From positions 744,001 through 808,000 of the forward strand of contig NZ_BEWM01000001.1 of assembly GCF_002723935.1 (NCBI RefSeq): a DNA stretch of 64,000 nucleotides, given 5' to 3'. Numbering within the stretch: the stretch's first letter is position 1; the number at the start of each line of letters is the position of its first letter. The DNA comes from Gluconobacter cerinus. Lineage in GTDB: Bacteria > Pseudomonadota > Alphaproteobacteria > Acetobacterales > Acetobacteraceae. Below are positions 8,674-37,312 of the stretch, in pieces. Made by a program: the position numbers and the translations under genes. The notes under the pieces were generated by a model. It saw only the letters and a program-made list of their open reading frames with translations. It was not told where the DNA came from and searched no databases.

Positions 8674-8674
8674 T

Positions 8675-10014: not shown

Positions 10015-10044
10015 GATGTGACGCCCGCAGAAAAACTATTCAGA

Positions 10045-10368: not shown

Positions 10369-10384
10369 AACGTCTCCTGGTCTT

Positions 10385-21122: not shown

Positions 21123-22523
21123 TCACAGACCGATCCGGTTGAGTGGCTTGCCCGCCATCAGGTTCCGCTCGATTTGCTCAAGGGAAACACCGCGGGTTTC
21201 AGGCACAAATTTCAGGGTGAGGTAGATGAAGAACGCATTGAACGCCGCGTACATCCAGAAGGTCTGGGCATTCCCGATGGTGTTCAGGAGCGTCAGGAAC
21301 GTCAGGCCGACGATCATGTTCGTGACCCAGTTCGTGAAGGTGGAGCAACCGATGCCGAAATCGCGCCCTTTGATGGGCTGAACTTCCGAGCATAGGATCC
21401 ACACCAGTGGACCGGCAGAGAACGCAAATCCGACGATGAAGGCCAAGAGCATGATCACGGCGCCATATCGCGCAAGTTCGCTATTGCCGGTTCCGAAGTA
21501 GAGCAGCGTTCCGACTGAAGCCATGCCGATCGTCATGATGATGAAGCCGGCAATCAGCATTGGGCGACGGCCCCATTTGTCCACGAAGCCAATGGCAATG
21601 AACGTCGACAGCACATTCACCAGACCGACAATCGCCGTGCCCCACATGGCTGCGTTATCGCCAAAACCTGCGACTTCGAAGATGCGGGGAGCGTAGTACA
21701 TCACCACGATGATGCCTGTGAACTGCTGCATGGTCTGGAGCAGGATGCCCAGAAAAACAGAGCGGCGGAAATTGGCGTTGGCCTTGAACAGGCCGTAGCC
21801 ACCTTCAATCTGCGCAAGCTGCTCTTCAATGTCCGAGATCTCGGCGCGCGCATCGCCTTCATGGCCACGCAGTTGATGCAGAACCGTAAAGGCTTCGTCC
21901 TTACGGCCCCGCAATACGAGCCAACGGGGGCTGTCAGGCAGCAGCAGCACGCCAAGCAGAAACACGACGCCTGGAATAGCGACAATGCCGAGCATCCAGC
22001 GCCATGAGCCGGAATAAGCCAGCAGCGCATCAGAGATGAACGCTACAAAAATCCCGACTGTAATCATGAGCTGGTAAACCGAGATCAGAGACCCACGGTA
22101 GTGCTGATGCGCAATCTCGGAGATGTAAAGTGGAGCGGTAAAGCTTGCGATGCCAACAGACACGCCAAGCACCATACGCCCCACAATCAGCAGCGTGACG
22201 GATGTTGCCAGCGCGCACAGCAGCGACCCGAGAACAAACAGGACAGCTGAAGACAGCAGCAGGCGCTTCCGGCCGAAGAGATAGGACAAGCGCCCACCGC
22301 AGACGGCACCTACCGCCGCACCAACCATCATCGATGAGACGATGCACTCCTTGCCGAAGTCCGTGACGTTGAATTCCAGACCGATGAATTTCAGAGCCCC
22401 TGAAATCACACCCAGATCGAGACCAAACATCAGACCCGCAACAGCAGCCAGAATTGCCGTCAGGACACTTTTACCATTCAGAGACACTGGCGGCGGTGGT
22501 GCCGAAAGGTCGATGCCACTCAT
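21123..22523 (-). CDS. MFS sugar:proton symporter (sugar porter family)
   Basis: The 466-residue product has about twelve membrane segments. Family signatures are GLMFGLDLGVISGAL in the first helix, LFGRKRLLL and DKWGRRPMLI in the two loop-2/3 positions, LLPDSPRWLVLRGR after helix 6 and KFVPETRGVSLEQIE after helix 12. These place it with GalP/XylE/AraE-like hexose and pentose importers. QQFTGIIVVMYYAP resembles the QQ-x-G-N sugar-binding helix but has Ile-Ile in place of the usual Asn. AAGGA precedes the start; a perfect palindrome lies 21 bases upstream. The substrate is unknown. Confidence 0.92.
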   Translation of the reverse strand: MSGIDLSAPPPPVSLNGKSVLTAILAAVAGLMFGLDLGVISGALKFIGLEFNVTDFGKECIVSSMMVGAAVGAVCGGRLSYLFGRKRLLLSSAVLFVLGSLLCALATSVTLLIVGRMVLGVSVGIASFTAPLYISEIAHQHYRGSLISVYQLMITVGIFVAFISDALLAYSGSWRWMLGIVAIPGVVFLLGVLLLPDSPRWLVLRGRKDEAFTVLHQLRGHEGDARAEISDIEEQLAQIEGGYGLFKANANFRRSVFLGILLQTMQQFTGIIVVMYYAPRIFEVAGFGDNAAMWGTAIVGLVNVLSTFIAIGFVDKWGRRPMLIAGFIIMTIGMASVGTLLYFGTGNSELARYGAVIMLLAFIVGFAFSAGPLVWILCSEVQPIKGRDFGIGCSTFTNWVTNMIVGLTFLTLLNTIGNAQTFWMYAAFNAFFIYLTLKFVPETRGVSLEQIERNLMAGKPLNRIGL

Positions 22524-22645: not shown

Positions 22646-24298
22646 TTACATGTTTGGATAGTTCGGCCCATCGCCTCCCTGCGGCGTTGTCCAAACGATA
22701 TTCTGGCTTGGATCTTTGATGTCGCAGGTTTTGCAATGCACACAGTTCTGGAAGTTAATCTGGAACCGTGGCTGTTCATTCTCCGGACGCAGAACCTCAT
22801 ACACGCCCGCCGGGCAGTAACGCTGGGCAGGCTCAGCGTAGAGCGGCAGGTTCACCTGGATTGGGATGGATGGATCACGGAGTGTCAGATGGCAGGGTTG
22901 GCGTTCTTCGTGGTTGGTGAAGGCAAACGCCACATTGGTTGTGCGATCAAAGCTGAGTTGCCCGTCCGGCTTGCGATATTCAATCGGCTTGAAACTGGCA
23001 GCCAACCCTGTTGCCGCGGCATCGGACTTTCCATGTCCGAGCGTTCTGAAGGGAGAGTGCCCGGTCAGAGTTGTCATCCACATATCCAGACCACCGAGCG
23101 CAACACCGCCCAGGAGGCCAAACCGCTCCCAGAGAGGTTTGACGTTACGGACGGCCTTTAAGTCTGTCCCGACAGGGCCGTTTCGCAGTTCTTCCTCATA
23201 ATCCGTCAGTTCATCCTGAGCGCGCCCAGCCGCCAGCGCTACGCGGGCCGCATCGGCAGCGGCAATGCCGGAGAAAATGGCGTTATGACTGCCCTTGATG
23301 CGCGGAACATTCACAAGCCCGGCGGAACACCCGAGCAGAACGCCGCCAGGGAAAGTCACTTTCGGAATGGACTGCCAACCACCTTCGGATAGCGCACGCG
23401 CACCATAAGCCACGCGTTTTCCGCCCTTCAGCAGTTCGGCCACCATCGGATGATGCTTGAACTCCTGAAACTCACGGTAAGGGTCCAGATACGGGTTTTC
23501 ATAGCCCAGATGGACGACAAACCCGACGCAGACCTGATTGTTGTCGAGATGGTAGATGAAGGACCCGCCACCCGCCTTGCTGTTCAGCGGCCACCCCATG
23601 GTGTGTGTGACTGTGCCTTCATGATGCTTGGCGGGATCGATCTCCCAGATTTCCTTGAGGCCCAGCCCGAATTTCTGCGGATCCTTGCCCTCGGAAAGCG
23701 CGAAACGATCCATTAGCTGACGAGCCAGTGATCCCCGCGCACCTTCGGCGAAGAACACGTATTTCCCGCGCAGTTCCATACCAGGTTCGTAGGCATCACC
23801 CGGCGTTCCATCGGGGTTTTTACCGAACTCGCCAGCCACCACACCCGCAACGCGACCCTGTTCGTCATAAACGACTTCGCTTGCCGCCATACCGGGGAAG
23901 ATTTCCACTTCCAGACCCTCTGCGACCTGTGCCAGCCAGCGGCAGACATTCCCCAGCGAGACAATGTAATTCCCGTGGTTGTCCATGAGCTTTGGCATCA
24001 GAACATTCGGCAGGCGGATCTGGCTCTTTTCCGTCAGCAGGAAGAAATTGTCTTCCCTCACCGGCACGGTGATGGGCGCATCCATGGTCCGCCATTCGGG
24101 AAGCAGCACATCCAGCGCGCACGGATCAATGACCGCGCCTGACAGGATATGCGCCCCGACTTCAGACCCTTTATCCAGTACGACCACGGAGAGGTTCGGC
24201 TCATTCTGTTTGAGCCGGATCGCCGCGGAGAGACCGGCAGGGCCAGCGCCGACGATGACAACGTCATAGTCCATGCTTTCCCGTTCGATCGTAGTCAT
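22646..24298 (-). CDS. Electron transfer flavoprotein-ubiquinone oxidoreductase
   Basis: The 550-residue membrane-associated flavoprotein moves electrons from reduced ETF to ubiquinone. The FAD-binding motif VIVGAGPAGLSAAIRL is at residues ~14-29. The C-terminus carries a 4Fe-4S site: Cys in YCPAGVYEV plus CVHCKTC. FQINFQNCVHCKTCDIKDP and WTTPQGGDGPNYPNM are diagnostic of ETF-QO. It is last in a leftward run of seven genes, 34 bases after etfA, with a strong GGAGGAG upstream. It links the acyl-CoA dehydrogenase at the head of this operon to the respiratory chain. Confidence 0.96.
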   Translation of the reverse strand: MTTIERESMDYDVVIVGAGPAGLSAAIRLKQNEPNLSVVVLDKGSEVGAHILSGAVIDPCALDVLLPEWRTMDAPITVPVREDNFFLLTEKSQIRLPNVLMPKLMDNHGNYIVSLGNVCRWLAQVAEGLEVEIFPGMAASEVVYDEQGRVAGVVAGEFGKNPDGTPGDAYEPGMELRGKYVFFAEGARGSLARQLMDRFALSEGKDPQKFGLGLKEIWEIDPAKHHEGTVTHTMGWPLNSKAGGGSFIYHLDNNQVCVGFVVHLGYENPYLDPYREFQEFKHHPMVAELLKGGKRVAYGARALSEGGWQSIPKVTFPGGVLLGCSAGLVNVPRIKGSHNAIFSGIAAADAARVALAAGRAQDELTDYEEELRNGPVGTDLKAVRNVKPLWERFGLLGGVALGGLDMWMTTLTGHSPFRTLGHGKSDAAATGLAASFKPIEYRKPDGQLSFDRTTNVAFAFTNHEERQPCHLTLRDPSIPIQVNLPLYAEPAQRYCPAGVYEVLRPENEQPRFQINFQNCVHCKTCDIKDPSQNIVWTTPQGGDGPNYPNM

Positions 24299-24332
24299 GG
24301 TCTTTCTCCTCCCTGCAGACTGCCAGGGCCTG

Positions 24333-25259
24333 TCAGAGTTTTGCCGTCAGTTCGGGAAGGATGGTGAAGAGGTCTCCCACCAGCCCATAATCCGCGACCT
24401 GGAAAATCGGGGCGTCTTCGTCCTTGTTGATGGCGACGATCACCCGGGAATCCTTCATGCCCGCCAGATGCTGGATCGCCCCGGAAATACCGACTGCGAT
24501 ATACAGATCAGGCGCCACGATCTTGCCCGTCTGCCCGACCTGCCAGTCATTCGGCGCGTATCCGGCATCCACGGCCGCACGGCTGGCGCCGATGGCAGCA
24601 TTCAGCTTGTCCGCAAGCTTGGCGATGGTGTCGAAGTTCTCTTTCGATCCCACGCCGCGGCCGCCTGAAACGATGTTCTTCGCAGCCGTCAGTTCCGGAC
24701 GTTCGGATTCAACCGCCTTGTCTTCCACCCAGGACGAGAGACCCGGATCGGCAGGCACGGAGACATTGTCCACACTGGCTGAGCCACCTTCACCAACAGC
24801 CGAAAAGGCCGCCGTACGAATGGTGAAAACCTTTACCGGATCGGAGGACTGCACCGTCTGGATCGCATTGCCAGCATAGACCGGACGATCGAACGTCTCG
24901 GCATCCTTTACGGCCGTTACGTCTGACAGGATCATGACATCCAACAAAGCCGCAACGCGTGGCAGAACGTTCTTGGAGAATGCCGTCGAGCCCGCAGCGA
25001 TATGGCTGTAACCGGACGCCAAAGACACGATGAGGGCGGCGACAGGTTCAGCCAGTTCATGAGCCAGAGACGCATCATCTGCCAGCAGGACCTTGGACAC
25101 GCCCTCAAGCTTTGCAGCTTCGGCGGCGGCTTCCGTGCCGTTCTGGGTAGCAACAAGAACTGTCACATCGCCCAGCGCTTTGACGGCAGACAGGGCCTTG
25201 GCAACGGTATCGGTTACGAGGTGGCCATTGGCCACCTCAGCGAGCAGCAGAACAGACAT
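24333..25259 (-). CDS. etfA: Electron transfer flavoprotein subunit alpha
   Basis: The 308-residue product has the C-terminal FAD-binding domain signature. [12 protein letters not shown] and the segment [32 protein letters not shown] are typical of EtfA/FixB. With EtfB it accepts electrons from acyl-CoA dehydrogenases. Its start overlaps the etfB stop by one base (TGATG), so the two subunits are coupled. Confidence 0.97.
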
Positions 25260-26020
25260 CAGATCACTCCTGCTTCATTTTTGAGTTTCGAAACCAGCTC
25301 ATCAACGGAACTGACCTTCACACCAGCCTGACGCTGAGGCGGTTCAGCCGTGCGGATGACCTTCAGACGCGGCGTAATGTCCACTCCGAGGTCAGACGCC
25401 TTGCGTTCTTCGAGCGGCTTCTTCTTGGCCTTCATGATGTTGGGCAGCGCGACATAACGCGGCTCGTTCAGGCGCAGATCGGACGTGATGATGGCAGGCA
25501 GCTTCACGCGGATGGTCTGAAGACCACCATCAACCTCACGGCTGACGGTTGCGCTGTCGCCTTCAATCTCGACAGACGATGCAAAGGTGGCTTGTCCCCA
25601 GCCCAGCAGGGCGGCGAGCATCTGACCAGTCGCGTTCATGTCGTTATCGATGGCCTGCTTGCCCGCGATGACGAGGTTTGGTTTCTCATCCTCAATCACC
25701 TTCGCCAGCAGTTTGGCGACGGCGAGAGGCTCGATATCCACATTCACATCCGTCGTGGCTTCGACGAAAATGGCACGGTCCGTGCCCATGGCGAGCACAG
25801 TGCGTAGTGTTTCTTTCGCCTGCGGCACACCGATAGAGACAGCGACCACTTCCGTGGCGATGCCTTTTTCCTTGAGGCGGACGGCTTCTTCGATGGCGAT
25901 TTCGTCAAACGGATTGACCGACATCTTGACGTTCGCAAGCTCGACCCCAGATCCGTCACCCTTTACGCGGATGCGGACGTTGTAATCGACGACACGTTTG
26001 ACAGGGACGAGGATCTTCAT
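25259..26020 (-). CDS. etfB: Electron transfer flavoprotein subunit beta
   Basis: The product has 253 residues from the ATG at 26020 ([15 protein letters not shown]); the frame is open 56 codons further upstream, inside the previous gene. [17 protein letters not shown] and the AMP-site region [23 protein letters not shown] are conserved EtfB features. [20 protein letters not shown] is the family's recognition-loop region that contacts dehydrogenases. It follows the isomerase gene with a 16-base gap, inside the acyl-CoA dehydrogenase operon. Confidence 0.97.
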
Positions 26021-26036
26021 GATGCCCTCCGATGGG

Positions 26037-26894
26037 TCAGCAGACAGTGCGGAAGCGTTCGACCATCGTGTCCAGCACGTCAGCCGGGTGGCGCTTCCAC
26101 CAGTTGTTCGCGGAAAAGATTTCCACCTCGCAGAAGCCGGAATACCCGGCGGCTTCCACCTCCCTGCGGATCCCCCGCAGGTCCGCAACGCCGTCCCCCA
26201 TCATCCCGCGGTCAAGCAGGATGTCTGTTGTGGGAACGAGCCAGTCACAGAGGTGAAAGCCCAGAATGCGGTTTCCCGCACGAGCGAGCTGGCGTGGCAG
26301 GTCCGTGTCCCACCACACATGGTAGATATCGATCGCAACGCCCACGCTATCCGACGCCAGAAGGTCGCACAGATCCAAGGCGTCACGGGTGGTCGTGAGG
26401 CAGGAGCGGTCTCCGGCATAGGCCGGATGCAGCGGCTCCAGCGCGAGTTTCACGCCACAGGCTTCAGCGTAGGGAATGGCCTTCGCCATCCGGTCCGCCA
26501 CGATGTCCAGGCTGTGAGCCACGCCCTTCGTGCCGGTTTCCACACCACCGACAACGATGGTCAGAACATCGGTTCCGAGCGCGGCTGTCTGATCGATGGA
26601 CTGACGGAAATCCGACAGGATCGCCTCTTCGCTCTGAAGGCCCAGCGGACCGACCAGAAAGGGCGTCCGGCACAGGCCGACAACCTGCACCCCGGCCTGA
26701 CGCGCCCGGTCTCCAATTTCCGCAGCCCGGCCTTCAATCTCCCGCCGCCAGAACACGATCCCGCCGATGCCACGTTCAGCACAGGCGTCGATCGTCTGTT
26801 CCGGTGACCACCCTGCCCCCACACTCGGCACATTATGGCCAAGCGTTGCGGTATTGAGGGCGAGAGCCGAATGATCGTGGCGAAAGTCCCGCAT
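26037..26894 (-). CDS. TIM-barrel sugar phosphate isomerase/epimerase family protein
   Basis: The 285-residue product belongs to the xylose isomerase-like TIM-barrel superfamily (AP_endonuc_2). Metal-binding candidates are Glu in KLALEPLHP, Asp and His in [11 protein letters not shown], His in LGFHLCDW and Glu in GFCEVEIFS, in the expected order for this fold. Such enzymes isomerise or epimerise sugars or act on keto-sugars. It lies two bases after the DUF993 gene and 16 before etfB. Pairing of this family with DUF993 proteins also occurs in other bacteria, as far as I recall. The substrate is unknown. Confidence 0.85.
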
Positions 26895-26896
26895 GA

Positions 26897-28045
26897 TCAG
26901 GCCCCGTACACCGACAGAAGCGACTTCATGCGGTGCACAGCCAGATCCGGGTTCCGCAACAGGCCGCAGCCATCTGCGAGACGGAAGATCTCCGTGAAAT
27001 GCTGGAGGGACCGCATGGACTGCGCACCATTCAGCATAACGAAGTGATCCTGAAAGCCATTCAGCCAGGCCAGAAACACCACACCCGTCTTGTAGTACTG
27101 CGTCGGGGCCTGAAAGATCACACGAGCGAGTGGAACAGTCGGGTCGAGTGCGTCGTGAAAACCTTTCACGTCCCCCTCGCCGAGCAGTTTTACACCACGA
27201 GCCGCAAGCGGCGCGATCGGATCGAAAATGCCGAGAAGCGCGTGGCTGTAACCCTGCTCGTCACCAGCGATCAGTTCCGGGTAATTGAAGTCATCACCCG
27301 TATACATCCGCACGCCCTTTGGCAGGCGACGGCGCATGATGATTTCCTTCTCCTTGTCGAGAAGGGAAATCTTGATGCCGTCCACCTTCGAGACGTTTTC
27401 TTCAATGATGCTCAGGACTGTTTCCAGCGCCTCATTGAAATCATCCGTGCCCCAATAGCCTGCCAGAGCCGGATCGAAATCCTTGCCCAGCCAGTGCAGA
27501 ACGACAGGCGCATCACAGGCAGAGAGCACCTCGCGGTAGACCCGCTTATAGTCCTCAGCACTGGACGCCACGCGGACGAGGGCTCGGCTGGCCATCAGAA
27601 TGACGCGTGCGCCAACCTTCTGGATCGCCTCGACCTGTTCCAGGTACGCCGCCAGTACATGATCGACAGAGCGTGCATCCTTCGGGTCCAGATGGTCTGT
27701 CCCCGCACCGTTCACGACCATCGCATCCGGCAGTTCGGCCTTGGTGCGACGGATCAGATCCAGCGCGCCGGGCCAGTCCAGCCCCATGCCGCGCTGGGCC
27801 GTATCCATGGCTTCCGCAATGCCGAGGCCCATGCCAACGAGATAGCGACGGAACTCAAGCGTCTTCTTCCAGTCGATCGTTGCGCGGCCGGACGGTGCAT
27901 TATCCGTGAACGGATCAGCGACGACATGGGCCGCCGAATAAACGATCCGGGCCGGATTAGCCGGAAGGACACTGCGAGGAACAGGAGTACCGATCAGATG
28001 GTAATCCATCTTCCGGCCGGTTTCGTCGGGCAGGATGATCTTCAT
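26897..28045 (-). CDS. DUF993 protein (dihydrodipicolinate-synthase-like fold)
   Basis: The 382-residue product fits the DUF993 family, related to the DHDPS/N-acetylneuraminate lyase class I aldolases. K225 in DGIKISLLD sits where DHDPS has its Schiff-base Lys (GIKE). The earlier VVLHWLGKDFDPALAGYW stands in place of the usual strand with the catalytic Tyr. So it may be an aldolase or lyase acting on a keto acid or keto sugar. No biochemical role is established that I know of. It lies nine bases after the SDR and two before the isomerase, inside the acyl-CoA dehydrogenase-ETF operon. Confidence 0.82.
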   Translation of the reverse strand: MKIILPDETGRKMDYHLIGTPVPRSVLPANPARIVYSAAHVVADPFTDNAPSGRATIDWKKTLEFRRYLVGMGLGIAEAMDTAQRGMGLDWPGALDLIRRTKAELPDAMVVNGAGTDHLDPKDARSVDHVLAAYLEQVEAIQKVGARVILMASRALVRVASSAEDYKRVYREVLSACDAPVVLHWLGKDFDPALAGYWGTDDFNEALETVLSIIEENVSKVDGIKISLLDKEKEIIMRRRLPKGVRMYTGDDFNYPELIAGDEQGYSHALLGIFDPIAPLAARGVKLLGEGDVKGFHDALDPTVPLARVIFQAPTQYYKTGVVFLAWLNGFQDHFVMLNGAQSMRSLQHFTEIFRLADGCGLLRNPDLAVHRMKSLLSVYGA

Positions 28046-28054
28046 AACCGTTTC

Positions 28055-28822
28055 TCAGAAGCGCGGCACAAGCATTCCGGCATCCGCCGAAATGACCTGG
28101 CCTGTGGTGTAAGGCAGTTTCCCGGTGGCAAGGGCCGCAATGATGCGTCCCATGTCCGAGGGCTCTCCAACACGGGGAAGCAGGGTCAGCCCCTCTTCCG
28201 CGCGCTGGCGGTAGTGCTGAATGACGGCAGCCGTCATTTCTGTAGCGATCAGGCCAGGCTGAACGTCATAAACCGCGATATTCTCGATCCCGAGACGCAC
28301 AGCCAGAGCCTTGGACACCATGGCCGCCGCAGCCTTTGACGCGCAGTATTCAGACCGTTGCACCGCCACAGCCGTCGCGTTCGACGATGTGACGTTGACG
28401 ATCGAATGGAACGCATCGGCTGACCGTTCCCGGCTCAGAAGACGCTTTGCGAAAGCCTGTGACAGGAAGAACACCGCCTTCGCATTGATCGTCAGGCAGC
28501 GGTCCCAGCTTGCTTCGGACACGTCCAGCAGGTCACCCCGCTGGAGGACGCCGACGCCCGCATTGTTCACCAGCGTTGTCAGCGGGCCGAGTTCGTCTTC
28601 AATCCGCGCCAGAACACCGTCATGGGCGCTGATGTCGGACACATCGAACGGGGCGGCTACAACCTTGGCGCCCAGCCCCTCCAGACGGGCCACGGCTGCA
28701 CGCAGTTCTGCATCATCAACCGGTCCATTTACCGCTAAAGAAAAGCCTTCTTTAGCGAGCGCTTCCGCGGCGGCCAGGCCGATCCCGCGTGAAGAGCCGG
28801 TGACGAGAGCGACCTGTCTCAT
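28055..28822 (-). CDS. Short-chain dehydrogenase/reductase (FabG-like)
   Basis: The 255-residue product has the NAD(P) loop TGSSRGIG (residues 8-15), NNAG at ~88-91, a Ser in VNVTSSNAT and the catalytic YCASK. The C-terminal GQVISADAGMLVPRF is typical. The family oxidises or reduces secondary alcohols, 3-hydroxyacyl groups or polyols; here it is probably a step of the surrounding pathway and not the housekeeping FabG. Its ATG overlaps the acyl-CoA dehydrogenase stop (ATGA, 28819-28822), so the two are coupled. Confidence 0.88.
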   Translation of the reverse strand: MRQVALVTGSSRGIGLAAAEALAKEGFSLAVNGPVDDAELRAAVARLEGLGAKVVAAPFDVSDISAHDGVLARIEDELGPLTTLVNNAGVGVLQRGDLLDVSEASWDRCLTINAKAVFFLSQAFAKRLLSRERSADAFHSIVNVTSSNATAVAVQRSEYCASKAAAAMVSKALAVRLGIENIAVYDVQPGLIATEMTAAVIQHYRQRAEEGLTLLPRVGEPSDMGRIIAALATGKLPYTTGQVISADAGMLVPRF

Positions 28823-29961
28823 GTACGGGCGCCCTTCTTGAGCAGTTCACGCGCTATGATCATGCGCTGGATCTGGTTCGTACCTTCATAGATCTGTGTG
28901 ATCTTGGCATCGCGATACAGACGCTCAACTTCAAAGCCACGGATGTAGCCGGAGCCACCAAAGACCTGCACAGCATCCGCCGTACGGGCCACAGCCACGT
29001 CACCAGCAAAGCATTTTGCCATGGAGCAGGAGCGCGTGGCGTCCTGACCGTTATCGATCTTCACCGCAGCGGAATGAACCAGCAGACGGGCCGCTTCGAT
29101 GTCCTTGGCCATATCGGCCAGAAGCCACTGAACACCCTGGAATTCAGAGATGTGCTTACCGAACTGCTTGCGCGTTCCGGCATAATCGACAGCGGCTTCA
29201 AGACCAGCCTGTGCAATGCCAACAGCGAGCGCTGCGATGCCAACACGCCCCTTGTCCAGCACACTCATCATCATGTGAAAGCCACGGTTCATCTCGCCCA
29301 GAAGGGCATCCGGGCCGAGGCGCACATCGGAGAAATCAAGCGCACCAACCTGGCTGGCCCGCTGACCCATCTTGTGCTCTTTCGGGCCGCGCTCAACGCC
29401 TTTGGCATGCAGGTCCACAATGAAAATGGACATGCCACGGTTTCCGGCTTCCTTGTCCGTCCGCGCCAGAACGAACCCGAGATCCGCCACCGGGGCGTTA
29501 TGGATCCAGATTTTGCCGCCGTTCAGAATCCAACCATCGCCATCACGTTCAACTGTGGTGCGAATGCCGGACACGTCCGTGCCGGCTTCCGGCTCGGTGA
29601 TGCAGTAAGCAACCTTGCGCTTCATGGAGAGAATGTCTGGCAGCAGCTTCTTCTGCTCATCCGTGCCGTGACGCACCAGAAGCGTGGAAATCAGTTCCAC
29701 CAGGCCACACTGATCGGCGATGCTGGCATAGCCGCGGGACAGTTCTTCCATCACGACGGCATAGGTCAGGGTATCGAAGCCGGGCCCTCCGAGCTCTTCC
29801 GGAACTGCAATGCCGAACAGGCCAAGACGGCCCATTTCTTCGTAGATTTCGGCCGGAAAGCGTTCTTCACGGTCGAGGGCCTCAGCAGCAGGGCGGATGA
29901 CTTCATCCACGAAAGACCGTGTGGTCTCGCGAACCTGCTCCTGCATTTCATTGAGAAACAT
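28819..29961 (-). CDS. Acyl-CoA dehydrogenase
   Basis: The 380-residue FAD enzyme has the family's N-terminal helical domain, the segment YCITEPEAGTDVSGIRT in the middle beta domain and a C-terminal helical domain. The catalytic Glu lies in QIYEGTNQIQRMIIA, as in short/branched-chain acyl-CoA dehydrogenases. It makes an alpha,beta-double bond and passes electrons to ETF; both ETF subunits and ETF-QO are encoded in the same operon. It is the first gene. An 18-bp inverted repeat lies 20 bases before its start. I saw no enoyl-CoA hydratase or thiolase in the window, so this is not ordinary beta-oxidation. Confidence 0.94.
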   Translation of the reverse strand: MFLNEMQEQVRETTRSFVDEVIRPAAEALDREERFPAEIYEEMGRLGLFGIAVPEELGGPGFDTLTYAVVMEELSRGYASIADQCGLVELISTLLVRHGTDEQKKLLPDILSMKRKVAYCITEPEAGTDVSGIRTTVERDGDGWILNGGKIWIHNAPVADLGFVLARTDKEAGNRGMSIFIVDLHAKGVERGPKEHKMGQRASQVGALDFSDVRLGPDALLGEMNRGFHMMMSVLDKGRVGIAALAVGIAQAGLEAAVDYAGTRKQFGKHISEFQGVQWLLADMAKDIEAARLLVHSAAVKIDNGQDATRSCSMAKCFAGDVAVARTADAVQVFGGSGYIRGFEVERLYRDAKITQIYEGTNQIQRMIIARELLKKGART

Positions 29962-29981
29962 AACCCGATTCCCTTAATTAG

Positions 29982-29999
29982 TAACTAACCAGTTAGTTA
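29982..29999. promoter_or_regulatory. Operator-like inverted repeat upstream of the acyl-CoA dehydrogenase operon
   Basis: The sequence TAACTAACCAGTTAGTTA has perfect eight-base arms around a two-base centre, as in many TetR-family operators. On the minus strand a possible promoter, TTGAAA-15 bases-TACTAA (30023-29997), overlaps it. A near-identical site lies before the CoA-transferase gene at 33014-33031. Confidence 0.75.
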
Positions 30000-30121
30000 G
30001 TATGGTGACTGATCTGTTTTCAAGGCCATTCTGCGTTTTGAAATCAAAAGAACTTGATGCTCATAATACCCAGAATGAATTCGTTCTCGCTAAGGAACAG
30101 TTTTTACTTCGCCATCTTTTT

Positions 30122-31381
30122 CTACCTCAGCAGAATAGCGCGAAAATCATTGACGTTTGTCCCGGTAGGACCTGGCACAAACAGGTCATCTAGTGCCTCA
30201 AAGGCAGTATAGGCGTCGTTTTCCGTCAGCAGGACGGACGGATTGATCCCGCGCGCGCGCAGTCGTCCCATACTTTCGCCATCCGCAAAGGCGCCGGCAT
30301 TGTCCTCAGACCCGTCAATTCCATCTGTATCCGCAGCGAGTGCGGAAACCGGAAGACCTTCAGCCGCGAGCGCAAACGACAGGAGAAACTCCGTGTTGCG
30401 ACCACCCCGTCCACGTCCATGCAATGTCACGGTTGTTTCTCCCCCCGAGAGGATGACAACCGGCTTCTGGAATGGCTGATTACGAATAATCACTTCACGC
30501 GCGATCGCTGCATGGACCTTCCCGACATCCCGGGCTTCCCCTTCAATCGCGTCGGAAAGGATAACAGCAGGAATTCCAAGATTTCGGGACGCTGCGGCTG
30601 CCGCCTCAAGAGACAGATGAGCCGACGCCACGATACGAACTTGGTTCCCGACAAATGCCGGATCTTCCGGACGCGGCGCCTGCCCCAGTTCTCCGTCGAG
30701 CCATGCTTGCACTTTAGGCGGCAGGGCGAGCTTCCAGGCCTTGGCCATATGCCGCGCGTCTTCGCGTGTTTTCGTATCAGGCACGGTTGGTCCAGAGGCC
30801 ACCTGTGCCGGATCATCGAACGGCACATCCGAGACTATGAGTGAAACGACTCTCGCCGGGGAAGCCGCGGCGGCCAGACGACCGCCCTTAATCCCCGAAA
30901 ACTGCTTACGGATGCTGTTCATGACAGAAATCGGCGCGCCAGAAGACAGGAGAACCCGGCTGAGCTCCGCTTCATCTTCCAACGTGAATCCTTCTGGCGG
31001 ACATGGCAGCAAGGCTGACCCACCTCCGCAGATCAGAGCAACGACCAGATCATCCGGACCTAATCCGCGCACCGCCTCAAACAAAGCCGCCGTTGCAGCC
31101 AGACCGGCTTGATCCGGAACCGGATGGGAAGCCTCCAGAACGCGGATCTGTTCTGTAGGGTAGCCATAGCCATAACGGGTGACGACAACGCCTTCCAGCG
31201 GACCATCCCACACGCGCTCGAAAGCTGCTGCAAGCTGGGCTGCCCCCTTCCCGGCCCCAACCACGACCGTCTTGCCTTTCGGGCGTTCCGGCAGGTTGGC
31301 AGCCAGCACGAGGTCTGCGTCAGCGGCCGTAATGGCGGCATTGAACAGACCTGTCAGGAAACTGTGATCGTCGACTGTCAT
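30122..31381 (-). CDS. Glycerate 2-kinase (type 2, MOFRL family)
   Basis: The 419-residue product has the N-terminal DUF4147 domain (VVVGAGKGAAQLAAAFE; CGGGSALLPCPPEG; KQFSGIKGGRLA) and the C-terminal MOFRL domain with GRGGRNTEFLLSFA and ALAADTDGIDGSED. Such enzymes phosphorylate D-glycerate to 2-phosphoglycerate; many databases still call them hydroxypyruvate reductase. It follows the CoA-transferase by 44 bases in a two-gene unit. In context it would channel a three-carbon product of the pathway into central metabolism. Confidence 0.93.
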   Translation of the reverse strand: MTVDDHSFLTGLFNAAITAADADLVLAANLPERPKGKTVVVGAGKGAAQLAAAFERVWDGPLEGVVVTRYGYGYPTEQIRVLEASHPVPDQAGLAATAALFEAVRGLGPDDLVVALICGGGSALLPCPPEGFTLEDEAELSRVLLSSGAPISVMNSIRKQFSGIKGGRLAAAASPARVVSLIVSDVPFDDPAQVASGPTVPDTKTREDARHMAKAWKLALPPKVQAWLDGELGQAPRPEDPAFVGNQVRIVASAHLSLEAAAAASRNLGIPAVILSDAIEGEARDVGKVHAAIAREVIIRNQPFQKPVVILSGGETTVTLHGRGRGGRNTEFLLSFALAAEGLPVSALAADTDGIDGSEDNAGAFADGESMGRLRARGINPSVLLTENDAYTAFEALDDLFVPGPTGTNVNDFRAILLR

Positions 31382-31425
31382 GGCTTCTTTCAGACTCCAC
31401 TCACGGAAAAGACGGCCTGGGGCGT

Positions 31426-32997
31426 TCAGAGCGTGAGCCCCATCACGGCATCCCTGAACAGAACGGCATCCATTTCCTTCAGTTCAGGAGAAACCTTCAG
31501 AGGCGTGGATGCCTGATCGAGCACGTCTTTCTGCAAGTCGATGCCCGGCGCGATTTCCGTGACCGTGAGTTCACCGTTCAGAAGCTTGAGAACACAGCGT
31601 TCCGTCACGTAGGTGACGTCCTGCCCTGTTTCGGTGGCTCTGCGCCCTGAGAAGCTGACCTGATCCACCTCTGGCACGATCTTGGAAATCTTGCCTTCCC
31701 GATCAATCACGAGACGGCCGTCCTCAATGTGCATCTTGGCTCCGGCATTGAAATTGCCTGAGAAGATGATGCGCTTCGCCCGTGCCGTAATGTCTACGAA
31801 ACCGCCCGCCCCTGCCGTCCGATGCGGCGTGGCAGCAAGGCGGCTGACGTTGACAGACCCATCAGCCCCGATCTCAAGGAAGGACAGCAGGGAGCAGTCA
31901 AAACCGCCCGCCTGGAAGTAGCTGAACTGGTGGGGAGAGGCGACGAAGGCCTCAGCATTACTGGCGCAACCGAACTTGAAATCCAGCAGCGGAACGCCGC
32001 CAACCGGCCCCTGTTCGATGACCCATGTCACGCTGCCATGCAGGCCTTCTTCCAGCAGGATACGTGGCACGTTGGCGGAAATCCCGAAACCAATGTTGAC
32101 CGCCCAGCCATCCTTCAACTCCTGCGCCACACGTCGCGCAATCACCTTGCCCGGATTGAAGTCCGGAATGGCGAAAGACGACAGAGGCCGGAAAATCTCG
32201 CCGGAAATTGCTGGGTCATAAGGCGTAGCAGTCGTCTGCAACTGATCCGGAGCTTCCACAACAACGTCCACCAGAATACCCGGCACTTTGACGTCATGCG
32301 GCTTCAACGTGCCCTGTTCTGCCACGCGGCGGACTTGCGCGATGACCAGCCCACCATTGTTATGAGCTGCCAGAGCCATTTCCATGGCACCAAGGGTGGC
32401 GCCTTCCTGCTCGAACGTCAGGTTGCCATTTTCGTCCGCTGTCGAGGCGCGAATGATCGCAACGTCCGGCTTGAGCGCCGGGAAATACAGCCAGTCTTCG
32501 CCTTCAAAGTCCATGTGACGCACGATGGGATTCGAGCGGGCAGTTTCGTTCATCGCACCGCCTTCCCGCTTCGGGTCCACGAAGGTATCGAGACCAACTT
32601 TCGTCAACACGCCGGGACGCAGGGCCGCACCTTCGCGCAGCATGTCGAAGATAACGCCAGATGGAAGGTTATAAGCAGCGACGTCCTCGGCCAGAATGCG
32701 CTGCCAGATAAGCGGTGGCTCAGCATTGCTGGGACCGGACGGGTAAGACCCACCGATGATCTTTTTGATCATGCCAGGCTGGGCGATATGATCCACGCCC
32801 TTGGTTCCAAACATGTCACCCGTCGCGATCGGATGGATCGTCGTCAGGTTCTTCGGGGCCGCTTCCTTTTCAAAACGCTCCCCGAGCGCCTTCAGAACAT
32901 CGTCGGGGCACAGAAGCCCGGACGATGCGTTGATCGCAATGGTGGAACCATCCTTGATAAGACTGACGGCTTCCGCTGCGGTTCTGGTCTTGGTCAT
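31426..32997 (-). CDS. Fused acyl-CoA:carboxylate CoA-transferase (YdiF/Pct type)
   Basis: The 523-residue product carries both halves of a family I CoA-transferase in one chain. The N-terminal half starts KTRTAAEAVSLIKDGSTIAI; the C-terminal half has GWAVNIGFGISANVPRIL and VTWVIEQGPVGGVPL. The Glu of IEQGPVGG is the expected catalytic residue that forms the glutamyl-CoA intermediate. Length and order match propionate CoA-transferase and E. coli YdiF. It would activate a carboxylic acid to the CoA ester used by the acyl-CoA dehydrogenase encoded to its left. An operator-like repeat lies 17 bases before its start. Confidence 0.92.
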   Translation of the reverse strand: MTKTRTAAEAVSLIKDGSTIAINASSGLLCPDDVLKALGERFEKEAAPKNLTTIHPIATGDMFGTKGVDHIAQPGMIKKIIGGSYPSGPSNAEPPLIWQRILAEDVAAYNLPSGVIFDMLREGAALRPGVLTKVGLDTFVDPKREGGAMNETARSNPIVRHMDFEGEDWLYFPALKPDVAIIRASTADENGNLTFEQEGATLGAMEMALAAHNNGGLVIAQVRRVAEQGTLKPHDVKVPGILVDVVVEAPDQLQTTATPYDPAISGEIFRPLSSFAIPDFNPGKVIARRVAQELKDGWAVNIGFGISANVPRILLEEGLHGSVTWVIEQGPVGGVPLLDFKFGCASNAEAFVASPHQFSYFQAGGFDCSLLSFLEIGADGSVNVSRLAATPHRTAGAGGFVDITARAKRIIFSGNFNAGAKMHIEDGRLVIDREGKISKIVPEVDQVSFSGRRATETGQDVTYVTERCVLKLLNGELTVTEIAPGIDLQKDVLDQASTPLKVSPELKEMDAVLFRDAVMGLTL

Positions 32998-33013
32998 TGC
33001 CTTTGATCCACTA

Positions 33014-33031
33014 TAACTATCTTGTTAGTTA
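33014..33031. promoter_or_regulatory. Second copy of the operator-like inverted repeat, upstream of the CoA-transferase
   Basis: The sequence TAACTATCTTGTTAGTTA matches the site at 29982-29999 (TAACTAACCAGTTAGTTA) at 14 of 18 positions, with differences only in the central part. The outer arms TAACTA and TAGTTA are identical in both. It lies in the short gap between sdh and the CoA-transferase gene, which suggests that the two-gene unit has its own regulated promoter. Confidence 0.72.
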
Positions 33032-33088
33032 CTTATGATCTTGTAAAAATCGCGACGCATGAGGCGCCGCTTGAGAAGGTTATCGTTC

Positions 33089-34684
33089 TCAAGCATTCCC
33101 CAGAATAAAGTCCGCCGCTCGCTCACCAATCATGACCGTTGCGGCATTGGTGTTAGACCCAAGCAATGATGGCATGACCGAGCTATCACAAATCCGGATG
33201 CCCTCCAGGCCATGCACATGCAGGCGTGGATCAACAACGGCCATCTCGTCCCTGCCCATCTTGCACGTGCAGGTCGGATGGTAGGATGTACGCCCCTGCT
33301 GACGAGCATAATCCTCATATGCCTTGAGCGTACGGCCGCCGCCTTCTGGCAGGCAAACCTTGCTGATGTATTTTTGCAGCGAGTGGCTACCGAACATTTC
33401 GTAGCTCAGGCGAACGCCCTCGGCCGTTGTCCGCAGATCGTCCGGGTGACCCAGAAAATTCGGATCCACAATCGGTGCTTCCCGAGGGTCAGACGAACGC
33501 AACGTGACAGACCCGCGCGCTTTTGGACGGAGCGTATAGCTGTTGAGCGTGATGCCAGACGTCCCTTTCGGAACAGACGCCACACCCGCTTCCGCGCCAG
33601 CGCCCGCCAGGAAGTGGAACTGAAGATCCGGGCAGCTTGCAGCAGGATCGCCGTACCAGAAGGCTCCGCCTTCCACGACGTTCGACGCCACTGGACCACT
33701 TCTGAACAGCGAGTATTGCAGGCCAGCCCACATCATCCACTTGTACTGGTTGTACTTGTCGAAACTGTCATGGCCTTTCAGCTCAGCAACAATATCGACA
33801 CCAAAGTGATCCTGAAGATTCTGACCCACACCCGGCAAATCATGAACAACGGGAATACCGTGCTCTTTGAGATGCGCAGCCGGACCAACACCAGACAGCA
33901 TCATCAGCTTTGGCGTTCCGATTGCACCGGACGTGACCAGCACTTCCTGCTCAGCACGGGCAGTGTGCATCTGCTTGTCTGCAATGTACTGCACGCCGAC
34001 TGCACGCTTCCCCTCGAAGACAACCTTCAGCACCATCGCGCCAGTAATCACCGTCAGGTTCTTACGCTTCAGAGCGGGACGCAGATATCCAACGGCCGTA
34101 GAACAGCGCCGGTTATTGCGCACCGTAAGCTGGTAAATGCCAGCACCCTGCTGAACTGGACCGTTAAAGTCAGGGTTATACGGAATTCCGATTTCCTGGC
34201 AGCTCTGTACGAAGGCGCGGCTGACGGGGTTCGGGCAATCCAGGTTCGACACGCCGAGTGGACCATCCGTTCCGTGCCATGATCCGGCAAGAATGGAATT
34301 TCCCTCAGAGCGGATGAAGTACTTCTGGATGTTCTTGAACCCCCAGCCGTCAGCTCCCTCCTGCTCCCACCGGTCGAAATCAGATGGATGGCCACGTGTG
34401 AAAACTTCGGCATTGATGGATGAACCACCACCGAGAACACGCGCCTGCACATACGGGATCTGGCGGTTATTGGCGTGCTTCTGCGGTGTGGTGACAAGCC
34501 CCCATGTCAGGGGACCTGTCGTCATTTTCGCAAAGCCAACCGGCATGTGAATGAGCGGATTGGTGTCACGCTTGCCTGCTTCGATCAGGCAGACGCGCAC
34601 CGCCGGGTTTCGGGAGAGACGGGCGGCAAGAACACATCCTGCCGAGCCGCCACCAACGATAACGTAATCGAAACCAGTCATCAT
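33089..34684 (-). CDS. sdh: L-sorbose dehydrogenase, FAD-dependent GMC family
   Basis: The 531-residue flavoprotein has the GMC N-terminal FAD motif YVIVGGGSAGCVLAARL, the signature VLGGGSSINAEVFTRG and the active-site His in SYHPTCTCKMG, with SLLGSNTNAA near the end. From memory the sequence closely matches L-sorbose dehydrogenase of Gluconobacter oxydans, which oxidises L-sorbose to L-sorbosone, including the strings IHMPVGFAKMTTGP and PDLQFHFLAGAGAEAG. Length also fits. It overlaps the upstream sorbosone dehydrogenase gene by one base (TAATG), the order reported for that pair. No signal peptide was seen. A related GMC alcohol dehydrogenase is the alternative. Confidence 0.8.
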   Translation of the reverse strand: MMTGFDYVIVGGGSAGCVLAARLSRNPAVRVCLIEAGKRDTNPLIHMPVGFAKMTTGPLTWGLVTTPQKHANNRQIPYVQARVLGGGSSINAEVFTRGHPSDFDRWEQEGADGWGFKNIQKYFIRSEGNSILAGSWHGTDGPLGVSNLDCPNPVSRAFVQSCQEIGIPYNPDFNGPVQQGAGIYQLTVRNNRRCSTAVGYLRPALKRKNLTVITGAMVLKVVFEGKRAVGVQYIADKQMHTARAEQEVLVTSGAIGTPKLMMLSGVGPAAHLKEHGIPVVHDLPGVGQNLQDHFGVDIVAELKGHDSFDKYNQYKWMMWAGLQYSLFRSGPVASNVVEGGAFWYGDPAASCPDLQFHFLAGAGAEAGVASVPKGTSGITLNSYTLRPKARGSVTLRSSDPREAPIVDPNFLGHPDDLRTTAEGVRLSYEMFGSHSLQKYISKVCLPEGGGRTLKAYEDYARQQGRTSYHPTCTCKMGRDEMAVVDPRLHVHGLEGIRICDSSVMPSLLGSNTNAATVMIGERAADFILGNA

Positions 34685-36180
34685 TATGCGATCCAGTGCG
34701 TCCGTTTGCCGAGATCTACGTGAACGGATTTGATCTGGGTGTATTCTTCCACCCCATACATACCCGCTTCACGGCCCCAGCCAGACTGCTTGAAACCACC
34801 CAGCGGCATTTCAGGGCCGCCAGCCATGATCGTGTTAACCCAGAAGCGCCCGGCCTGAACCTTGCGCGTCACCTTCAGGGCCTTGCTGATATCCTTCGTC
34901 CAGACAGACGCCGCCAGACCATAAACCGTGTCATTGGCCAGGGAGATCGCTTCTTCCAAGGTGCTAAACCGGAAGACGGACAGCACCGGACCAAAGATCT
35001 CGTCCGTCGCAATGGACATATCCGGCTTCACATTTGTGAAGAGCGTTGGCGCAATGTACTGCCCACGACCCAGATCGACCTTATTACCGCCACACAGAAC
35101 GCGCGCGCCTTCGGCCTTACCCTTCTCGATATAGTCGAGAATGGTCTTGTTCTGAGCATCCGTCGTAATGGCGCCAATCTGCGTTTCCGGGTCAAACGGG
35201 TCACCCACGCGGATCTTTTCCATCTTGGCGACAACAAGCTTTTCAAACTTGTCAGCCACAGACTCTTCAACGATCAGACGGCTGGACGAGACGCAGCATT
35301 GCCCGGTGTTAAAGCTGATCCCAAAGGCCACCGCATCGGCCGCATCTTCCAGATCGCTGTCCGCAAAGACGACAATCGGGTTCTTGCCACCAAGCTCTAG
35401 GCCAAGCTTCTTGAGGTTGCTGTCTGCGGACGCATGGATACAGGACCGGCCAACACCCGTGGAACCAGTGAAGGACAGCATATCCACATCCGGATGCTGC
35501 GTCAGAGCCTGACCGACACTCTTTCCGGTGCCCGTCACGACGTTATAGACGCCCTTTGGCAGGCCGGCTTCCGTCAGAATATCGGCCAGCATCAGCGTGG
35601 TTGCGCTGGTGACTTCCGCTGGCTTCACGACGACCGTACAGCCTGATGCCAGAATGAACGGCACGCGCTCACACAGGATCATAAACGGGAAGTTCCAAGG
35701 CGTGATGAGGCCAACGACACCCACCGGCTCGCGCAGAACCATTCCAAACAGGCTTTCGCCCAGATTGTTGAAGCTGTCGCCGTGCAGAAGGCGCGCGGCA
35801 CCGGCAGCCATCTCGAAACAGGAAATACAGTTGTCGATCTCAGCCTTGGCCTGAGAAATCGGCTTGCCGTTCTCCAACACTTCCCAGAAGGCGATATCAT
35901 CGCGACGCTGCTTCAGAAGCTCAGCCGTTTTAAGCAGGATCGCACTGCGTTCTGAGCTTGCCAGACCAGCCCATGTGCCGTTCTCAAACGCACGACGCGC
36001 GGCGGCTACCGCATCATTCAGATCGTCTTCCGTGCAACGTGCAATTCGCGTGACAATAACATCATGACTGGGAGACTTGCGCTCGAACATCTCACGTCCG
36101 TGGCGCCACTCACCATCGATGAAAAACCCAAAGTCACGAGCCACTCCGGATGGAGCCAGTTTCTGTGCCATCTTGTTCAT
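34684..36180 (-). CDS. sndh: L-sorbosone dehydrogenase, NAD(P)-dependent aldehyde dehydrogenase
   Basis: The 498-residue product is an ALDH-superfamily enzyme. TPWNFPFMILCERVPFILASGCT and FTGSTGVGRS form the cofactor site. The catalytic Glu lies in LGLELGGKNP and the nucleophile in FNTGQCCVSSSRL. From memory it closely matches the G. oxydans L-sorbosone dehydrogenase (497-498 residues), which makes 2-keto-L-gulonate from L-sorbosone. It heads a coupled sndh-sdh unit and is divergent from a TetR regulator, with a 478-base gap. No signal peptide was seen, so it acts in the cytoplasm. Confidence 0.82.
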   Translation of the reverse strand: MNKMAQKLAPSGVARDFGFFIDGEWRHGREMFERKSPSHDVIVTRIARCTEDDLNDAVAAARRAFENGTWAGLASSERSAILLKTAELLKQRRDDIAFWEVLENGKPISQAKAEIDNCISCFEMAAGAARLLHGDSFNNLGESLFGMVLREPVGVVGLITPWNFPFMILCERVPFILASGCTVVVKPAEVTSATTLMLADILTEAGLPKGVYNVVTGTGKSVGQALTQHPDVDMLSFTGSTGVGRSCIHASADSNLKKLGLELGGKNPIVVFADSDLEDAADAVAFGISFNTGQCCVSSSRLIVEESVADKFEKLVVAKMEKIRVGDPFDPETQIGAITTDAQNKTILDYIEKGKAEGARVLCGGNKVDLGRGQYIAPTLFTNVKPDMSIATDEIFGPVLSVFRFSTLEEAISLANDTVYGLAASVWTKDISKALKVTRKVQAGRFWVNTIMAGGPEMPLGGFKQSGWGREAGMYGVEEYTQIKSVHVDLGKRTHWIA

Positions 36181-36658
36181 TGACGGCTTCTCCCTGTCTT
36201 TTTTGACGAGCGCTCAATGACGCATCGTCGTTTCAGATTGTCCCGTGAGCAGACGGTCAGCGCACCAGGATTGTTTAACGGTCAAGATGCTGTTGAACCG
36301 CCTGTTGTGAGCGGTGCGCTGGAAAAGGATTTATCTCTTACCCAGGCATCGGTTTGAAAATATTACCCTCCACAAGAAAGCCGCCCCTTCGAAAATGTTT
36401 CCGAAAAAACCGCCACCGCGGAATATTTTTCTCAATTCTGCCCCCTGGTTTCGCCCCTCCACAATGGAGAGATCAAAGCGCCTTTCGCACCATATGGTTA
36501 CTTTGGTAGCGCAGAATGAAAAATCTCATAAATCACGTTATAGTGATAAGTAAATCTCTTTTATATGTTATTTTTTATGTGATGTTTTGACGTCTGCGCG
36601 TTTCCGGCCATAAAGCGGGAACTTCAGGCCCGGCTCCAGCAAAAAGCGAGATTTCCCG
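36181..36658. promoter_or_regulatory. Divergent intergenic region between sndh and the TetR gene
   Basis: This 478-base region holds no convincing gene. It becomes AT-rich towards the TetR gene. Visible elements are nine-base arms CAGCGCACC/GGTGCGCTG (36258-36266 and 36313-36321), a ten-base palindrome ACCATATGGT (36489-36498) and ATCAC-6-GTGAT (36532-36547). It must contain the promoters of both flanking genes. The TAACTA/TAGTTA operator of the neighbouring operons is not present here. Confidence 0.6.
36532..36547. promoter_or_regulatory. Inverted repeat upstream of the TetR gene
   Basis: Five-base arms ATCAC and GTGAT flank GTTATA, 111 bases before the TetR start. The size would suit a dimeric regulator, perhaps autoregulation. 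The evidence is only the symmetry and the position. Confidence 0.35.
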
Positions 36659-37312
36659 TTGAGTGCACAGTCCCCAGACACACAGTCGCCCCGCCCTCGA
36701 ATCCGCGATGCAGAAGCTACAAAAAGCCGGATTCTCGAGGCCGCAAAAAAAGAGTTTGCAAAAAACGGCCTTGAAGGGGCCCGCGTTGACGCAATCGCGC
36801 TGGAAGCCAATGCCAATAAGCGCATGATTTATCACTACTTTGAAAGTAAAGAGAGACTCTTCCAGACAGTTCTGGAAAATGCGTATTTCGATATTCGCGA
36901 ATCTGAGAAAAAGCTGGATCTGGATAGCTTAGATCCCCGGGAAGCCCTTGAACGACTCGTCCGCTTTACCTGGAATTATTATATCCAGAACCCTGAGTTC
37001 ATTTCACTGGTGAATAGCGAGAATCTGGCACAGGCCCGGCATTTAAAGTCTTCAGAAACCGTCAAGATTGTCAGCAGACGCTTCGTCGGACTCGTTGACA
37101 CGATTTTAAAGCGCGGTGTGGCGCAGGGACTTTTCCGAAAGGGCGTTGACCCGGTCCAGCTCAATATCACTATAGCAGCCGTCAGCTACTACTACTTCAC
37201 CAACCAGTATACAGGATCGATCATTTTCGAACGGGAGTTGATGTCCGAGGCTGCTCAGGCAGAGCGCATTCGCTTTAACATCGAGACGATTTTGAGAATT
37301 GTTTCTCTGTGA
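36659..37312 (+). CDS. TetR/AcrR family transcriptional regulator
   Basis: The 217-residue product has an N-terminal TetR helix-turn-helix: RILEAAKKEFAKNGLEGARV, then IALEANANKRMIYHYFESKERLF (about residues 20-65). The C-terminal ligand domain has no recognised specificity. The start is a TTG (36659), because the first in-frame ATG lies inside the DNA-binding domain. It is divergent from sndh-sdh and is the only local regulator, so it is the best candidate to control that unit. Whether it also binds the TAACTA/TAGTTA sites before the acyl-CoA dehydrogenase and CoA-transferase genes is not shown. Confidence 0.88.
   Translation: MSAQSPDTQSPRPRIRDAEATKSRILEAAKKEFAKNGLEGARVDAIALEANANKRMIYHYFESKERLFQTVLENAYFDIRESEKKLDLDSLDPREALERLVRFTWNYYIQNPEFISLVNSENLAQARHLKSSETVKIVSRRFVGLVDTILKRGVAQGLFRKGVDPVQLNITIAAVSYYYFTNQYTGSIIFERELMSEAAQAERIRFNIETILRIVSL

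Follow-up and report, generated by a model that had tools for sequence, protein, structure and literature searches.

A DUF993 gene cluster in Gluconobacter cerinus with a shared predicted operator and a candidate thiolase-free route for a sugar-like alcohol

In a 64-kb stretch of the Gluconobacter cerinus genome (the window; contig 1, positions 744001-808000, of a 3.58-Mb assembly), open reading frame (ORF) and family searches place twelve neighboring genes in three transcription units separated by gaps of 91 and 160 bp, with a divergent TetR regulator gene among them. Families were assigned from ORF calls and Pfam/NCBIfam matches, which confirmed at its coordinates every family named in an earlier reading of this DNA (the original prediction); to that gene list we add a sugar porter of the major facilitator superfamily (MFS), a GAPDH gene and three predicted operator sites. 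The features, in window coordinates, are as follows.

36659..37312, + strand: TetR-family regulator with a TetR_C_29 domain (PF17938/PF00440), divergent from the aldehyde dehydrogenase
36484..36503, no strand: predicted operator site 1, in the gap between TetR and the aldehyde dehydrogenase, 16.8 bits
34684..36180, - strand: NAD(P)-dependent aldehyde dehydrogenase (ALDH), L-sorbosone dehydrogenase type (family match; nearest solved chain 7W5L)
33089..34684, - strand: FAD-dependent GMC-family alcohol dehydrogenase, sorbose dehydrogenase type (Pfam/NCBIfam)
33052-33070: terminator-like hairpin, preceding operator site 2
33011..33030, no strand: predicted operator site 2, 13 bp 5' of the CoA-transferase start, 14.8 bits
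31426..32997, - strand: single-chain family-I CoA-transferase, YdiF/FadX-like (Pfam/NCBIfam and solved relatives)
30122..31381, - strand: glycerate 2-kinase, DUF4147-MOFRL (Pfam/NCBIfam)
29979..29998, no strand: predicted operator site 3, 17 bp 5' of the acyl-CoA dehydrogenase start, 24.0 bits
28819..29961, - strand: acyl-CoA dehydrogenase (ACD), short-chain type, Glu of YEGT kept (Pfam/NCBIfam)
28055..28822, - strand: short-chain dehydrogenase/reductase (SDR), 3-ketoacyl reductase type (exceeds the NCBIfam PRK12745 cut-off)
26897..28045, - strand: DUF993, putative class I lyase of the dihydrodipicolinate synthase (DHDPS) fold (PF06187; Lys225 in GIKISLL invariant)
26037..26894, - strand: xylose-isomerase-like TIM-barrel isomerase/epimerase (family match, conserved residues)
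25259..26020, - strand: EtfB, of the electron-transfer flavoprotein (ETF) (Pfam; the mechanical ORF begins upstream at 26188)
24333..25259, - strand: EtfA (Pfam)
22646..24298, - strand: ETF:ubiquinone oxidoreductase (ETF-QO; PF05187, PF21162)
21123..22523, - strand: MFS sugar porter, 3' of ETF-QO, a possible uptake protein found at this place in Gluconobacter loci only
20012..21031, - strand: GAPDH, after the sugar porter and in the same direction as ETF-QO

The original prediction held that the three units serve one pathway and suggested looking for the whole gene set in other genomes. Using DUF993 as bait in a scan with one genome per species, we took the best 80 loci (more exist) with at most 10 kb on either side; loci end at 10 kb or at contig ends, and the family counts are lower bounds. 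Identity thresholds for these counts were fixed after a first view of the data, and one group of 35 loci was set by eye; two loci (L032, L033) nearly duplicate the window, L039 and L220 come from a single record, and L163 and L170 carry no annotation. ACD was present at 60% identity or more in 31 of the 80 loci. Alongside it we found SDR in all 31, the TIM barrel in 29, CoA-transferase in 25, GMC in 22, ALDH in 17, TetR in 13, EtfB in 10, EtfA in 9, glycerate kinase in 7 and ETF-QO in 4. All seven core families (ACD, DUF993, SDR, TIM, CoA-transferase, GMC and ALDH) were clustered in 14 of the 31 loci, which belong to Gluconobacter (two, one of them a near-copy of the window), Acetobacter (four), Sinirhodobacter, two Mesorhizobium bins, a Rhizobiaceae bin, Labrenzia, two Pseudomonas and Caballeronia. 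As the gene order varies while the set stays constant, this pattern points to function and not to recent shared ancestry.

Plasmids hold the set too. The blocks of Sinorhizobium meliloti M162 and Paracoccus versutus comprise TetR, a CUT2 sugar ABC transporter, a Zn-dependent alcohol dehydrogenase (Zn-ADH), ALDH, GMC, an aldo-keto reductase, CoA-transferase, enoyl-CoA hydratase (ECH), glycerate kinase, a second aldo-keto reductase, ACD, SDR, DUF993, TIM, EtfB and EtfA (annotated in P. versutus as an FAD-binding protein). The same set plus ETF-QO lies on a plasmid of Roseateles sp. XES5, a record marked unverified in which any TetR would be outside the fetched stretch, and the Sagittula block has a Dabb protein and MaoC, lacks glycerate kinase and shows no ETF genes in the stretch fetched. 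ParD/RelE-type toxin-antitoxin pairs occur inside the S. meliloti M162 block (L165:7481-8087) and directly after the Roseateles block (L169:21592-22139).

A search led by ACD rather than DUF993 (E 1e-100, genome lists intersected by hand) gave the same association: among 299 genomes of the host family, 28 had ACD, and DUF993 was found in 27 of these vs 51 of the 271 without ACD (Fisher p 8e-17). At E 1e-150 a search over the phylum was too strict, returning from 398 genomes only the window's own. Within the genus, 12 of 26 Gluconobacter genomes have the DUF993 gene, and the gene set is therefore accessory. In all 11 Gluconobacter loci, from 10 distinct records, GAPDH follows the sugar porter. 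Among the 80 loci, those of other genera lack it at a threshold of 60% identity; it is probably a neighbor and not a pathway member.

The second line of evidence is an operator common to the units. A first scripted search for palindromes in the TetR-ALDH gap gave nothing convincing, and the motif emerged on comparing the gaps of the units. We built a palindromic 20-bp matrix from the 150 bp 5' of ACD in 38 loci, none from Gluconobacter; these training loci are mutually related, and the motif finder forces one palindromic site per sequence. The three best separate places in the window (positions 29979, 36484 and 33011) fall one before each unit, and the fourth best, at 9.5 bits, lies inside flgI. 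In 100 first-order shuffles of the window (6.4 Mb) the top score was 14.1, with 15 places at 10 bits or more; site 2 is only just above this maximum, so its position and conservation carry it. At a threshold of 11 bits, all 10 other distinct Gluconobacter records have a site before ACD and one before CoA-transferase, and nine have one in the TetR-ALDH gap, the tenth record ending before TetR. In this genus the sites lie 17-21 bp (ACD) and 13-17 bp (CoA-transferase) from the start codon, where a bound repressor would block; the site picked by the motif finder is farther away, 35-128 bp 5' of ACD, in 10 of the 38 training loci. Across 105 loci, an ORF starts within 200 bp of 129 of the 130 sites of at least 16 bits, and for 125 of these 129 sites such an ORF matches the cassette reference set. 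The control, random places in those loci, gave such a match in 66/121, 73/119 and 77/124 cases; it is high (55-62%) since cassette genes make up most of these loci.

The neighboring TetR, 65% identical to the TetR adjoining the S. meliloti block, would be the protein that binds this operator and represses; the box itself resembles the RutR box. A further site (16.4 bits, L166:3899-3918) stands before genes for a VOC protein and a Zn-dehydrogenase 5' of the S. meliloti block, which are possible further pathway genes. Taken from sequence, the view that the region specifies one pathway and one regulon is well supported, because the gene set is co-conserved and its units share one operator, and on this point the original prediction held up.

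A pattern search of the whole genome found two more exact copies of the operator outside the window. With up to two mismatches, a reversed control pattern gave 86 matches vs 35 for the real one, so only exact copies count. The first copy (26.3 bits, L202:8839-8858, C2:352839) is 22 bp ahead of a gene for an MFS protein of NCBIfam PRK05122, which includes relatives of arabinose transporters; this gene, with no close relative among the fetched cassettes, is a candidate unlinked regulon member. The second (23.8 bits, L203:9220-9239, C2:559222) is within an oprB gene, some 540 bp 5' of pyrroloquinoline quinone (PQQ)-dehydrogenase genes, which we take to be sldBA-like, and may be a chance occurrence or mark a distant regulon member. 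The product of this oprB is 51-53% identical to the porins of Acetobacter loci L037, L038 and L040 and only 23% to that of L035.

The chemistry of the individual enzymes can be read with differing confidence. ALDH has as its best solved relative the L-sorbosone dehydrogenase (SNDH) of G. oxydans WSH-004 (7W5L; 944 bits over residues 13-497), which gives the name SNDH a good basis. The best solved relatives of the GMC protein are other GMC enzymes, alcohol oxidase first, with none named sorbose dehydrogenase (SDH) among the matches listed (59 solved sequences); of the two names given originally, SNDH thus stands on its own match, and SDH because its gene is paired with that of SNDH. CoA-transferase is of the single-chain YdiF type by comparison with solved chains, the closest matches of ACD are acryloyl-CoA reductase and short-chain ACDs, and the glycerate kinase of a relative matches the solved putative glycerate kinase 2b8n. 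The Glu of YEGT in ACD, the Glu of EQG in CoA-transferase, the Tyr and Lys of SDR and the His of GMC, which we take to be catalytic, are conserved in at least 95% of relatives. A second EtfA/EtfB/ETF-QO set elsewhere in the genome (L204, C2:312000-330000, 8171-11572) is 55, 62 and 51% identical, respectively, and the cluster's copy is therefore an extra one; none of the genome's six acyl-CoA dehydrogenase matches is on the contig carrying that second set.

DUF993 has the (beta/alpha)8 fold of the DHDPS/N-acetylneuraminate lyase superfamily. The window's protein, 99% identical to its Gluconobacter sp. Gdi counterpart, matched only PF06187 in Pfam and not PF00701, the narrow DHDPS family, which two other genes of the genome match. 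Its Lys225 is invariant in 22 of 22 sequences and, in a weak alignment, pairs with the lysine of DapA GVKD, and Glu153, Asp189, His214 and Glu258 of the adjoining TIM barrel are conserved in at least 97% of relatives. Each of these two window proteins matches a solved S. meliloti protein, SMc04132 in the case of DUF993 and SMc04130 in that of TIM. The DUF993 structure, 4dnh (2012), is still labelled hypothetical; a search by gene name found no paper on its function in the open-access literature, where SMc04132 appears as an uncharacterized entry of an expression table with no function given. We regard DUF993 as a candidate for carbon-carbon cleavage. Three DUF993 loci contain shikimate-dehydrogenase-like genes (L054:4483-5319, L065:4236-5057, L099:9058-9957), which are rare and hint at carbocyclic substrates.

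ACD with its YEGT Glu, ETF and ETF-QO are features of beta-oxidation. The original prediction denied normal beta-oxidation for lack of a hydratase and a thiolase, which holds for the hydratase in the window and for thiolase in the genome, where we found no full thiolase (the N domain gave three partial matches, two of them exceeding the cut-off, with a top score of 34.5 bits), and fails for the relatives: ECH or MaoC is present in 15 of the 31 ACD loci and ECH in 4 of 4 annotated plasmid blocks, with ECH absent from Gluconobacter, Acetobacter, Pseudomonas and some other loci. Since ECH or MaoC occurs in roughly half of the relatives' loci and sugar-type transporters in many, the pathway looks like beta-oxidation without thiolase. 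Glycerate 2-kinase, proposed as part of it, is encoded here as stated; it is a facultative and not a constant member (7 of 31 ACD loci).

The relatives' uptake partners are of sugar type: CUT2 ABC transporters in rhizobia and Paracoccus, OprB carbohydrate porins and gluP-type MFS proteins in the Acetobacter loci. Named family relatives of the CUT2 binding protein bind allose and ribose; neither the S. meliloti binding protein (best match the unnamed 2rjo) nor the Roseateles Zn-ADH has a solved relative naming a fitting ligand. On reasoning only, we rejected substrates of the homocholine, furfural, 2-C-methylerythritol, apiose and deoxyribose types, none of which fits all families. The WSH-004 SNDH was assayed on a panel of aldehydes, alcohols and sugars, with stronger specificity stated for L-sorbosone and a Km for it of 1.06 mM (PMC10602560). 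A Km in the millimolar range is compatible with some other natural substrate. The sequence of sdh/sndh oxidation, CoA transfer and ETF-linked dehydrogenation proposed originally is ordinary chemistry for these families; L-sorbose would suit the first two enzymes, but that it is the natural substrate is doubtful, since its product 2-keto-L-gulonate lacks an alpha-hydrogen for ACD.

We therefore propose, with a probability of roughly 0.6, that the three units are under divergent TetR repression and break down a sugar-like alcohol by a CoA-dependent, thiolase-free route with cleavage by DUF993. We infer the order of steps, the cleavage and the sugar-like substrate. The alcohol would be imported by a sugar transporter, of the MFS in Gluconobacter and of the CUT2 ABC type in rhizobia and Paracoccus, and GMC and ALDH would oxidize a terminal CH2OH to a carboxylate, which CoA-transferase would convert to a CoA thioester. 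ACD would then introduce an alpha,beta double bond, its electrons reaching ubiquinone by way of ETF and ETF-QO; a hydratase, such as the ECH or MaoC of the relatives, would add water (the Gluconobacter enzyme is not assigned), and SDR would oxidize the new hydroxyl to a ketone. DUF993, with its presumed Schiff-base lysine, and the TIM-barrel isomerase/epimerase would cut the carbon chain in place of thiolase, and glycerate 2-kinase would recover a C3 fragment as glycerate.

Several observations weigh against this proposal. With regard to cleavage, the Lys225 alignment with DapA is weak (P 0.042), and the usual substrates of DHDPS-type lyases are 2-oxo acids rather than 3-oxoacyl-CoA. ACD is lacking in 49 of the 80 DUF993 loci, 37 of which have a Gfo/Idh dehydrogenase, and in 51 of the 78 DUF993-bearing genomes of the host family; as DUF993 is often found without ACD, its reaction need not involve CoA. 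With regard to hydration, the window has no hydratase, and the genome has no MaoC above the cut-off and one distant crotonase (27-34% identical to cluster ECHs, best E 4e-25). The operator evidence is concentrated in the training loci, which hold 95 of the 130 sites of at least 16 bits; of 67 non-training loci, 20 have such a site. In other genera of the host family, L143, L144 and L156 have ACD-SDR-MaoC and CoA-transferase without GMC or ALDH, and the matrix scan found no operator in L143 or L144, the two of these with DUF993. (L143 also has a peptide-type ABC transporter.) Finally, the stated preference of SNDH for L-sorbosone speaks for a sorbose-like substrate.

That last point leads to an unlikely alternative, in which L-sorbose or another ketose is the substrate: an aldo-keto reductase would turn 2-keto-L-gulonate into an aldonate, which after CoA activation would be converted by ACD to a 2,3-enediol/keto thioester and cleaved. 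Such a reduction would be required because 2-keto-L-gulonate has no alpha-hydrogen and is otherwise unusable by ACD. Besides SDH/SNDH chemistry and that preference, this scheme gains from the two aldo-keto reductases of the relatives, one nearest the 2,5-didehydrogluconate reductase DkgB, from a gene of the G. cerinus genome (L202) 31-32% identical to the relatives' DkgB-like enzyme, and from the operator copy inside oprB with its following PQQ-dehydrogenase genes. The window has, however, no homologue of the cassette aldo-keto reductases (E 1e-3), ECH of the relatives would be without a role, and we know of no precedent for ACD acting on an aldonyl-CoA. Ordinary beta-oxidation of a short-chain fatty acid or diol, with thiolase encoded elsewhere, seems to us somewhat less probable again. 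ACD, nearest short-chain ACDs and acryloyl-CoA reductase, belongs with ETF, ETF-QO, SDR, CoA-transferase and the relatives' ECH to beta-oxidation families, but the partial thiolase matches are all that the genome offers, the relatives' blocks contain sugar transporters and porins, and DUF993 and TIM stay with the set (TIM 29/31; DUF993 was the bait, but 27/28 in the ACD-led search). Least credible is that a pair making 2-keto-L-gulonate from L-sorbose, a glycerate salvage gene and an ACD operon are separate neighbors, as the closeness of ALDH to an SNDH characterized in PMC10602560, the gaps, one with the terminator-like hairpin, and the facultative glycerate kinase might suggest; the operator is common to all units and the same families cluster in varying order in Acetobacteraceae, Rhodobacteraceae, rhizobia and Pseudomonas.

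A bolder form of our proposal of a DUF993-dependent, thiolase-free route, which we advance only tentatively and think rather improbable as a whole, makes DUF993 a new type of lyase, with Schiff-base chemistry on an aldolase fold, that takes the place of thiolase where a polyhydroxylated and perhaps carbocyclic alcohol is degraded by a pathway resembling beta-oxidation. DUF993 would then be shared, together with the isomerase and partly the same operator, with a second, CoA-free pathway fed by the Gfo/Idh dehydrogenase, and SDH/SNDH would be recruited entry enzymes.

If true, the proposal would place the sorbose/sorbosone dehydrogenases studied for the vitamin C precursor in a natural setting and assign a function to DUF993. 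It would also mean that acetic acid bacteria, rhizobia, Paracoccus and Pseudomonas break down sugar-like alcohols by an undescribed route that depends on CoA. Because the units share an operator, the regulon can be tested directly. In agreement with the original prediction, we found no described pathway with this gene set in the open-access literature, and other papers are possible.

Four known systems are comparable. In the accessible parts of two reports, the SDH/SNDH pair is treated alone as a route to 2-keto-L-gulonate (PMC10602560, PMC7092628). The G. oxydans pair (strains T-100 and WSH-004) likewise combines GMC with ALDH; in the window, by contrast, the pair forms one unit within a larger regulon that includes CoA-dependent steps. 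The DUF993-TIM module with a Gfo/Idh dehydrogenase (Bradyrhizobium, Variovorax and others) shares DUF993, TIM and, in part of its loci, a related TetR and the same operator, whereas most of its loci have no adjoining ACD, GMC or ALDH and its transporters differ. In deoxyribonate catabolism an oxidized sugar acid is processed with CoA, a beta-keto acid cleavage enzyme and glycerate kinase, and with no ACD/ETF; the window set resembles it in handling a sugar acid through CoA chemistry with glycerate salvage and differs by ACD/ETF. In cyclohexanecarboxylate/benzoate ring degradation (Ali/Bad), ACD, ECH and SDR act on a CoA thioester, the same order of reaction types that we propose, and the second-best NCBIfam model for the window's ACD, below the cut-off, is cyclohexane-1-carbonyl-CoA dehydrogenase. 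Compared with Ali/Bad, the window has a CoA-transferase in place of a ligase, DUF993 and TIM in place of the ring hydrolase BadI, and an alcohol-oxidizing front end.

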